Source of the DNA: Salisediminibacterium halotolerans
GTDB taxonomy: Bacteria; Bacillota; Bacilli; Bacillales; Salisediminibacteriaceae
DNA: 64,000 bases
NCBI RefSeq assembly: GCF_003814815.1
Contig: NZ_RKQQ01000001.1
Coordinates: 558,001-622,000 of the forward strand
Reading direction: 5' to 3'
A model generated the notes under the pieces. The model ran no database searches and had not been told where the DNA came from. It saw only the letters and a program-made list of their open reading frames with translations. The position numbers and the translations under genes were made by a program. Positions 2,559 to 54,114 of the stretch are shown piece after piece. Positions within the stretch are counted from its first letter, which is position 1, and every line of letters begins with the position of its first letter.

Positions 2559-2584
2559 TTCTACTGATTAGAATACAAAAACGC

Positions 2585-2847
2585 CCGGCTTCTTTCACCT
2601 GAAGGTATCACTGCAACATCGCCGCAGGAGAAAGCCGGGATGCTGGGTCATCCTCTTTTTTTAAAGCGAGTGTATTCATAAAAAAGAAGCCATGCATCCA
2701 CTCCTCCGACGCCTCCGGGAAAGCAAGAGACGAAGATCCGTATTCGGCGGTCTGAGACCGCCGAATACTAGCTGAGTCCTTGCCCGGGGCAAGCGGAGGG
2801 TAGTGGATTCATGGCTGACCTAAAAATATAGTTTGTCTACAGTCTGA
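2585..2847. repeat. Terminator-associated repeat, copy A (deleted form)
   Basis: This is a GC-rich non-coding repeat in the convergent gap between the YjiH gene and ridA, in the same orientation as copy E (45791-46213). It keeps the right end (TTTGTCTACAGTCTGA at 2832-2847), the core with CTTGCCCGGGGCAAG and the 24-bp palindrome around 2742-2767. Compared with copy E it lacks about 60 bp of the left end and about 105 bp in the middle. The left junction is at CCGGCTTC, a sequence shared by the host terminator and the element, which suggests loss by recombination. The 330-bp gap contains nothing else. Confidence 0.8.
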
Positions 2848-2886
2848 AACGCCCGGCTTCGCTCGTATAGAGCAGCCGGGCGTTTT
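2848..2886. terminator. Terminator between the YjiH gene and ridA
   Basis: The stem AACGCCCGGCT pairs with AGCCGGGCGTT, followed by TTA on the plus strand. A left half-copy (AAAAACGCCCGGCT) remains at the other end of repeat A, consistent with a duplicated terminator that later suffered a deletion. Confidence 0.8.
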
Positions 2887-7964: not shown

Positions 7965-7972
7965 CCGCAGCA

Positions 7973-8006
7973 AAGCCCTTCTCACGCTAAGGTGAGAAGG
8001 GCTTTT
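7973..8006 (+). terminator. Terminator hairpin, left copy flanking repeat B
   Basis: AAGCCCTTCTCAC pairs with GTGAGAAGGGCTT around a 6-nt loop, followed by Ts. A near-identical hairpin with a different loop closes the far side of repeat B at 8553-8587. Confidence 0.9.
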
Positions 8007-8552
8007 AAACTGTAGACGAACGGTTATTTTGACGTAAGCCGCGAAGCCGCTAACCTCCGCTTGCCCCGGGCAAGGACTCAGCTAGCATTCGGCGGTCTGA
8101 GACCGCCGAATGCGGATCTTCGTCGCTTGCTTTCGAGGCTGCTGAAAAAGTTGATGATCAATTGGATGCCTGCATATTTATTCTTTCTTATAGATTGAGA
8201 GGTGTTATGAGACCGGAGCAAACTCGACGCCTGCGGGAAAAGCAACTGCCAATGTATTTGCGACGAGTAACCGCAGGAGCAGAAGACCCCGCAAGAAGCG
8301 GTTTCGCTTCTGAGGAGGCTTAGGCGTTGCCCGCGGCAAGCGAGTTTGTGCAGGGCTCAAAATATTCTGCATTCTATATGGCTTATAAATAAACACCGAC
8401 TTCGATTATCCAGCACTTTTTCAGCAGCCTCCTTGCTTTCCCGGAGGCGTCGGAGGAAGCGGCGACGCGGCGCTCGCCCGCAGGATATAAGCCGGACGAT
8501 GCGTCGTCATCCGGTCTCTAAACAAGTTGACGTCAGACTATGTCAACACTTA
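8007..8552. repeat. Terminator-associated repeat, copy B (with nested MITE)
   Basis: This is a GC-rich non-coding element between the DJ-1 gene and glnS, in the same orientation as copy D. It begins with ACTGTAGACGAA and ends with TATGTCAACACTT, imperfect inverted ends. The core around CTTGCCCCGGGCAAG and the palindrome at about 8087-8112 are kept. It is interrupted by a MITE at 8135-8431 and has lost part of its right middle section. Whole terminator hairpins flank it on both sides. Small ORFs here are not coding. Confidence 0.85.
8135..8431. mobile_element. Non-autonomous MITE nested in repeat B
   Basis: This 297-bp element is bounded by perfect 17-bp inverted repeats (8135-8151 and 8415-8431, GAGGCTGCTGAAAAAGT). 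It is flanked by a 9-bp direct repeat CTTGCTTTC (8126-8134 and 8432-8440), a target site duplication that also restores the repeat B sequence when removed. There is no transposase; the 63-codon ORF inside is not credible. The ends look like those of a DDE-type IS, possibly IS1182-like, but I could not check that. Confidence 0.88.
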
Positions 8553-8587
8553 AAAACCCTTCTCACCGGAAAGTGAGAAGGGCTTTG
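8553..8587 (-). terminator. Terminator hairpin of glnS, right copy flanking repeat B
   Basis: AACCCTTCTCAC pairs with GTGAGAAGGGCTT around the loop CGGAAA. The stem is the same as the hairpin at 7973-8006. It lies just beyond the glnS stop codon and can act in both directions. Confidence 0.88.
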
Positions 8588-34848: not shown

Positions 34849-34876
34849 AAAACGCTCCGATGATCCGGAGCGTTTC
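34849..34876 (+). terminator. Terminator of the AEC gene, left copy flanking repeat D
   Basis: AAAACGCTCC pairs with GGAGCGTTT. The 27-bp unit recurs at 35257-35283 with a single mismatch, on the other side of repeat D. Confidence 0.88.
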
Positions 34877-35256
34877 AGATTGTAGACAAATTATTATTTT
34901 GACGTAAGCCGCGCAGCCACTAACCTCCGCTTGCCCCGGGCAAGGACTCAGCTAGTATTCGGCGGCCTGAGGCCGCCGAATACGGATCTTCGTCTCTTGC
35001 TTTCCCGGAGGCGTCGGAGGAAGCGGCTGCGTGGTTTTCTTACTTTGCAGAACAACATTGCCACTGCGCTTTTTTAAACAAGGAGGATGACCCAGCATCC
35101 CGGCTTAATCCTGCGGGAAAGCGAGATAGGCGAGACCCTGCAGGGCCAAGCCCGAAGCGGCTCGGCGCTCGCCCGCGGAAAGAAGCCGGACGATGCGTAG
35201 TCATCCGTTCCTTTTAATATGACATCTATCGATGTCATGACTTTGTCGACAGTCTA
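34877..35256. repeat. Terminator-associated repeat, copy D (about 380 bp, near intact)
   Basis: This GC-rich non-coding element has imperfect terminal inverted repeats (AGATTGTAGACAAA at the left, TTTGTCGACAGTCT at the right). Inside lie CTTGCCCCGGGCAAG, a 25-bp palindrome around 34957-34982, and a GC-rich module with CGAGACCCTGCAGG and CGCTCGCCCGCGGAAAG. It has no ORF of note. It is the best reference copy for the + orientation and fills most of the 540-bp gap between the AEC and BCCT genes. Confidence 0.88.
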
Positions 35257-35285
35257 AAACGCTCCGGTGATCCGGAGCGTTTTTC
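35257..35285 (+). terminator. Terminator hairpin, right copy flanking repeat D
   Basis: AAAACGCTCCGG pairs with CCGGAGCGTTTT and is followed by Ts. It is the functional-looking, T-tailed partner of the hairpin at 34849-34876. Confidence 0.88.
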
Positions 35286-44802: not shown

Positions 44803-44847
44803 AGTAAGCCGCGCAGCTCTCCTCCGACGCCTCTGGGAAAGCAAGAG
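44803..44847. repeat. Terminator-associated repeat, remnant F
   Basis: This is a 45-bp relic containing TAAGCCGCGCAGC and CTCCTCCGACGCCTC-GGGAAAGCAAGAG, both found in copies A, D and E. It abuts the terminator between the lipoprotein gene and rlmH, so it occupies the same kind of site as the longer copies. Confidence 0.7.
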
Positions 44848-45714: not shown

Positions 45715-45769
45715 GATTTTGCCTCCTTCGATCCGAACTAAGTCAGTTACGTTCAGTCTAACAAAAAAA

Positions 45770-45790
45770 GAAGGAGCAGACACTCCCTCT
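45770..45790 (-). terminator. htrA terminator hairpin, left copy flanking repeat E
   Basis: This 21-bp sequence is repeated exactly at 46214-46234. On the minus strand it forms AGAGGGAG/CTCCTTCT followed by seven Ts, so this copy, now about 450 bp from htrA, retains the T-tract of the original terminator. Confidence 0.8.
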
Positions 45791-46213
45791 CAAAGTGTTG
45801 ACAAAGTCATGACATCATTAAATGTCATGTTAAAAGGAACGGATGACGACGCATCGTCCGGCTTCTTTCACCTGAAGGTATCACTGCGACATCGGCTCAA
45901 AAAGACTTCGCCGTGTCTTACTAGTCCGCGGGCGAGCACCGAGCCGATTCGGGCTGATGCCCTGTAGGGTCTCGTCTATCCCGCTATCCCGCAGGAGAAA
46001 GCCGGGATGCTGGGTCACCCTCTTTTTTGAAGCGAGTGTATTAATAAAAAAGAAGCCATGCATCCACTCCTCCGACGCCTCCGGGAAAGCAAGAGACGAA
46101 GATCCGGATTCGGCGGCCTCAGGCCGCCAAATACTAGCTGAGTCCTTGCCCGGGGCAAGCGGAGGATAGTGGATTCATGGCTGACATAAAAATATAGTTT
46201 ATCTGCAGTCTGA
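45791..46213. repeat. Terminator-associated repeat, copy E (423 bp, longest)
   Basis: This non-coding element is in reverse orientation to copy D, between yyzF and htrA. Its left end is GTTGACAAAGTC and its right end GTTTATCTGCAGTCTGAG. It keeps all modules: the ATGACATCATTAAATGTCAT dyad, a GC-rich section with a CGAGAC-type motif, the core palindrome (one base changed) and CTTGCCCGGGGCAAG. Exact 21-bp direct repeats flank it. Overlapping ORFs inside are not coding. Confidence 0.88.
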
Positions 46214-46234
46214 GAAGGAGCAGACACTCCCTCT
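46214..46234 (-). terminator. htrA-proximal hairpin, right copy flanking repeat E
   Basis: This is an exact copy of 45770-45790 located 8 bp after the htrA stop codon, but without a T-tract on the minus strand. Confidence 0.75.
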
Positions 46235-53322: not shown

Positions 53323-53398
<76 letters not shown>

Positions 53399-53402
53399 AA
53401 AG

Positions 53403-53478
<76 letters not shown>

Positions 53479-53489
53479 ACTATGTAAAA

Positions 53490-53565
53490 TGGCGGTCCCG
53501 ACGGGAATCGAACCCGCGATCTCCTGCGTGACAGGCAGGCATGTTAACCGCTACACCACGGGACC
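53490..53565 (-). tRNA. tRNA-Asp (GUC)
   Basis: A 76-nt cloverleaf with encoded CCA; the anticodon loop CTGTCAC gives GUC. Confidence 0.97.
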
Positions 53566-53617
53566 TTAAAATTAGGATGTATCGGCGACCTGTACACGCT
53601 GACGAAACAGAAAAGCA

Positions 53618-53660
53618 ATTTACTTGCTTTGACTTTGGCAACAAATCAAAGCAAGTAAAT
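53618..53660. repeat. 14-bp inverted repeat between tRNA-fMet and tRNA-Asp
   Basis: ATTTACTTGCTTTG (53618-53631) and CAAAGCAAGTAAAT (53647-53660) are perfect inverted copies separated by 15 bp. The place within the tRNA transcript suggests a processing or attenuating hairpin; there is no clean T-tract. Confidence 0.7.
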
Positions 53661-53664
53661 GAAA

Positions 53665-53727
<63 letters not shown>

Positions 53728-53741
<14 letters not shown>

Positions 53742-53882
53742 GCAATATTAATGAATTTGTGCTGTGCTCCCAGCCTTGTTTTCAAGACTGTCTCTTCCGT
53801 TCCTCACTGCGTTGCGGTACGTCGAGACAACTCACTTCGTTCGTTGCTCCACCCCGCGGCAATATTAATGAATTTGTGCTGT
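53728..53882. repeat. 38-bp direct repeat: duplicated 5' end of tRNA-fMet with leader
   Basis: Bases 53728-53765 and 53845-53882 are identical over 38 bp. The unit covers the first 14 nt of tRNA-fMet plus 24 nt of upstream sequence. The outer copy has no rest of a tRNA. Between them lie about 80 bp containing TGCGGTACGTCGAGACAACT. It looks like a tandem duplication or an insertion or recombination scar in the tRNA operon. Confidence 0.85.
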
Positions 53883-53956
53883 TCTTTTCAAGGCAACACC
53901 GTTCATGCTACCCGATAAAAATCGAAAAGTCAACCTTGAACCGCAAATCATTAGAA

Positions 53957-54031
<75 letters not shown>

Positions 54032-54038
54032 GTAATAA

Positions 54039-54114
54039 TGGTGAGCCATGGAGGATTCGAACCTCCGACCCTCTGATTAAAAGTCAGATGCTCTGCCAGC
54101 TGAGCTAATGGCTC
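54039..54114 (-). tRNA. tRNA-Lys (UUU)
   Basis: A 76-nt cloverleaf with encoded CCA; the anticodon loop CTTTTAA gives UUU. It is the first gene of the operon Lys-Glu-fMet-Asp-Phe-Thr. Confidence 0.97.

Follow-up and report, generated by a model that had tools for sequence, protein, structure and literature searches.

Hairpin targeting is known in the IS1182 family of insertion sequences. IS1272 and TnSha1 target inverted repeats and terminator hairpins without sequence specificity, and IS1272 deletes or replaces the hairpin, leaving no target duplication (Furi 2016, PMC4923244; Wan 2017, PMC5678879). Beside the 3'-foot pathway proposed for IS1272, Wan et al. drew an alternative, pathway b, in which joining at the 5' feet would duplicate the hairpin, but gave no example of it. 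In the papers we examined, whole-hairpin duplication appears only as this hypothetical pathway, although our literature search did not extend to ISfinder or to most subscription papers, and direct repeats of 0-60 bp may already be listed for IS1182 in ISfinder-based reviews, so that priority is uncertain. Here we describe a small element in Salisediminibacterium halotolerans, and an IS1182-type transposon that probably moves it, that insert at hairpins and leave a complete copy of the hairpin on each side.

A miniature element between duplicated hairpins

The window analysed is a 64,000-nucleotide stretch of contig NZ_RKQQ01000001.1 (positions 558,001 to 622,000, forward strand). Within it, the 27-nt hairpin AAAACGCTCCGATGATCCGGAGCGTTT at 34849-34875 (+) recurs with one mismatch (26/27 identical) at 35256-35282 (+), one base to the left of the start given in the original prediction. 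The 380-bp element between them, 34876-35255 (+), overlaps no ORF of 100 aa or more and matches no known RNA family. Its ends are imperfect inverted repeats, CAGATTGTAGACAAA on the left (34876-34890, +) and TTTGTCGACAGTCT on the right (35242-35255, -, with the end ambiguous by 1 nt). The left neighbour is a Mem_trans-type transporter gene, and the right neighbour a BCCT transporter gene.

Two further copies in the window are bordered by different duplicated hairpins. The second copy, 8006-8552 (+), lies between hairpins at 7972-8005 (+) and 8553-8586 (+), which match at 29 of 34 positions with most differences in the loop. This copy is interrupted at about 8137-8432 by an unrelated element with ends GGCTGCTGAAAAAG ... 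CTTTTTCAGCAGCC-like, and several copies elsewhere in the genome are also split by about 280-300 bp of other sequence. The third copy, 45791-46212 (-), belongs to a second subfamily, in the opposite orientation, and lies between hairpins at 45769-45790 (-) and 46213-46234 (-) that are identical over 22/22 positions. A truncated fourth copy, 2581-2883 (-), has a full hairpin at 2849-2883, while the other hairpin is reduced to 2581-2592; it looks like a deletion between the short match CGCCCGGCTTC in the hairpin and CGTCCGGCTTC inside the element, which removed most of one hairpin and the right end. A lone 28-29 nt fragment of the element (CTCCTCCGACGCCTCTGGGAAAGCAAGAG) at 44819-44847 sits just upstream of a hairpin-like gatcagcattagcgctgatc sequence, without the rest of the element. 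Elsewhere in the window, a cluster of six tRNA genes on the minus strand (53326-54114) includes a 41-nt near-identical direct repeat at 53728-53768 and 53845-53885.

We searched the 2.84-Mb genome with two copies and with the end motif; a pattern search of the genome's contigs for the element found nothing. The retrieved stretches hold 111 BLAST clusters, merged to 101 copies, of which 98 could be analysed and 84 have both ends. In local alignment, true left/right flank pairs have a median score of 45 against 12 for mismatched pairs, and 72 of 84 exceed the 99.9th percentile of mismatched pairs. Under stricter rules, 73 copies have a clean, locus-specific direct repeat of 18-40 nt, with a median of 25. 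In 72 of these 73 the hairpin centre lies within 1.5 nt of the repeat centre, and in 66 of 73 the stem score is above the 99th percentile of nearby control windows. A simple correlation of repeat length with palindrome length was only moderate (r = 0.42), because many stems extend beyond the repeat through A/T pairs, and the centre test is the stronger one. The other 11 two-ended copies lack a clean repeat; several are truncated or chimaeric, some lack a true second end, some have offset repeats, and one (C1:541048; C1, C2 and C4 denote contigs of this genome) sits between two different hairpins, which suggests recombination between copies. Left and right hairpins average 96% identity, and 33 of 68 equal-length pairs are identical. 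In three copies, C1:195881, C1:542306 and C4:173587, the two hairpins differ by changes on both sides of a base pair that keep the pair, reflecting either selection on both hairpins or hairpin-templated repair.

Taking the element's own left-to-right direction, the flanking genes run in the same direction as the element in 30 copies, convergently in 23, in the opposite direction in 16, and divergently in 3. The excess of convergent over divergent settings is what terminator targeting predicts. A strict orientation of the element to the terminator was rejected, and there is at most a mild bias (30 against 16).

A full-length partner, its relatives, and empty sites

A single DUF772 transposase was found in the genome. 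It lies in a 1738-bp element at C2:366165-367902, with ends CAGACTGTAGACAAA ... TTTGTCGACACTCTG, flanked by an exact 27-bp hairpin duplication, ACCGTCCCTCTTCTTTAGAGGGACGGT. The 480-aa protein matches the IS1182 transposase model NF033551 at 450.8 bits (cut-off 270), and matches DUF772, DDE_Tnp_1_6 and DDE_Tnp_1 (PF05598, PF13751 and PF01609) above cut-off. The left end of the window element, CAGATTGTAGACAAA, matches the IS end CAGACTGTAGACAAA. The miniature element (MITE) and the IS share only about 15-17 bp at their ends, so the link is by ends and behaviour, and derivation of the MITE as an internal deletion of the present IS is rejected. The IS1182 connection, offered in the original prediction only as a suggestion, is thus supported. 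The 5' end of the IS folds into a hairpin followed by seven T, which might shield the transposase gene from incoming transcription. The leaders of this IS (locus L048, about 1260-1400) and of relatives in other genera (loci L169 and L170) carry a G+C-rich block with CTCCCGC(A/G)G...GAGGAGG-type sequence that recalls the G+C-rich core of the MITE and may be a shared structured leader.

Exact whole-hairpin duplications flank relatives in Bacillus massiliglaciei and Lactococcus laudensis, in many genomes of the same order down to 31% protein identity, in further Bacilli, on a Sutcliffiella horikoshii plasmid, and on Enterococcus faecium plasmids, where they flank an ISEfa7 copy (locus L365) and another IS1182 element on a linear plasmid (locus L367). 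Near-identical copies in relatives suggest recent activity there. Of 61 such repeats collected, 58 fold as one hairpin to within 2 nt of both ends, and 2 of 6100 shuffles are as stable. Elements with two different hairpins at their two junctions (e.g. loci L231, L234 and L363) fit recombination between copies, since each junction still bears a hairpin.

To look for sites without the element, we joined the flanks of three insertions from one multi-copy genome (G187) and four from another (G013) at one hairpin and searched the same genus. At five loci, relatives match across the junction without the element and carry one hairpin; no empty site with two hairpins was seen. At one locus (site B), 13 other species read ...CTAAAACAAAAGCTCGCCGGATGGCGAGCTTTTTTCTT... 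with small variations, where G187 has AAAGCTCGCCGGATGGCGAGCTTT on both sides of the IS, while sites D and E rest on one more diverged relative each. The sequence gained on insertion is the element plus one hairpin. These empty sites are for IS relatives and not for the MITE itself; the same-genus genomes are too diverged for such a search at the window locus.

A second group of IS1182 loci has ends of the type GRGGCTGGGACA or GGGGCTGTCCC and no direct repeat above background. We take this group to be IS1272-like from its ends and lack of duplication, without a comparison to the sequence of IS1272 itself. In a tree of 48 transposases, all 12 classified non-duplicating members lie on one side of a 100/100 branch, and none lies among the duplicators. 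An automatic search for ends missed several members of the duplicating clade because the called ORF ran upstream, and these were recovered by a motif-based rescan. Nine unclassified members lie in the duplicating clade, and for several of them, or for a sister copy from the same genome, the rescan found duplications. Three long unclassified branches make the deepest placements unsure.

Target choice, mechanism, and effect on termination

The window element is best explained, with a probability of roughly 0.85, as a MITE whose ends match those of the IS1182-family transposon in the same genome, which probably mobilises it or shares the enzyme that did. Sequence comparison shows that the target is an inverted repeat, usually a terminator hairpin, chosen by structure and not by sequence, and that insertion leaves one complete hairpin on each side, so that the target duplication ranges from about 15 to 42 bp and tracks the hairpin. 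The original prediction, that the element picks intrinsic terminators and duplicates the whole hairpin from the target, is therefore supported.

DDE transposases normally leave a duplication of fixed length because two active sites sit a fixed distance apart, and a fixed-stagger transposase would not give repeats of about 15-42 bp that stop at the hairpin feet. Here the length varies more than two-fold and follows the hairpin, which points to a folded target as the real substrate. It is likely, though inferred from geometry rather than biochemistry, that strand transfer occurs at the two 5' feet of an extruded hairpin and that gap repair then leaves the whole hairpin on both sides; a single-stranded or transcription-linked substrate would fit the same footprints. 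On this reading a related clade with different ends would instead remove the hairpin, and one family would conserve and multiply its targets in one branch and consume them in the other. The published hypothetical pathway becomes directly testable, and annotators gain a clear signature of ends and duplication. Such a site-choice rule mostly avoids breaking genes and leaves the target usable again. As related elements sit on E. faecium plasmids, the rule may help explain where they land.

The further proposal that transcription ending stays intact is only partly supported. Both hairpins in the window are complete, but the left copy is cut off from its T-tract, and only the right copy is followed by a T-tract and scores as terminator-like on the + strand, so these are two complete hairpins rather than two complete terminators. 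Across the genome, A-rich sequence stays left of the left hairpin and T-rich sequence right of the right hairpin, with 4.8 T on average in the 8 nt after the right copy against 2.4 after the left. We infer that the upstream gene would read through a T-less hairpin and the element and stop at the distal hairpin, with the element added to the transcript. Faster decay of the T-less left hairpin was tested and not seen (Wilcoxon p = 0.40; left weaker in 15, right weaker in 19).

Among alternatives, it is possible, if tentative, that the MITE is or was moved by a different, now lost IS1182-type transposase. MITE and IS share only their ends, the MITE copies are diverged (identities to the two queries mostly 83-98%), and only the one PF05598 transposase is found in the genome. 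However, the end repeat and the unusual target behaviour are the same, so the lost enzyme would still be of this clade. It is also possible, though slightly less likely, that the target is chosen by the transcription machinery (a terminating RNA polymerase complex or nascent RNA hairpin), or by single-stranded DNA at forks, and not by a cruciform in duplex DNA, although duplication of the whole hairpin would still follow from joining at its two feet. The strong 3'-end location and the T-rich sequence right of the right hairpin favor this view, but in 20 of 73 copies no T directly follows the right repeat, so that the inverted repeat and not the T-tract is the common factor, and IS1272 was reported to insert also into inverted repeats inside a gene. 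Insertion next to or between pre-existing tandem terminators, or later gene conversion, is very unlikely despite the paired changes at C1:542306 and C1:195881, which show that histories are not always simple, because empty sites at five loci have one hairpin and exact duplications flank near-identical, recently spread copies.

Comparison with known systems

Group IIC introns, retroelements with a ribozyme, appear likewise to insert at intrinsic terminators but probably leave no target duplication; no Rfam group II intron match was found in the window, and here the target is duplicated. Prokaryotic MITEs in general are similarly short, non-coding, intergenic and present in many copies with inverted ends, but the passages on terminators and target sites in a review (PMC10969869) do not describe whole-hairpin duplications. 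ISEfa7, an IS1182-like element of E. faecium plasmids, is a full-length element rather than a MITE, with about 55% protein identity to the partner IS, the same ends CAGACTGTAGACAAA, and a duplicated hairpin at one copy (L365). Only a few ISEfa7 copies were examined, and some have altered flanks (loci L360, L362 and L364); at L365 (364-420), an extra ISEfa7 end and a hairpin lie just outside the copy, as if one hairpin site had been used twice. IS1272 and TnSha1 share with the present element the transposase family, by name, and the targeting of inverted repeats and terminator hairpins without sequence specificity. IS1272 deletes or replaces the hairpin and leaves no target duplication, whereas the element described here keeps and duplicates the whole hairpin.
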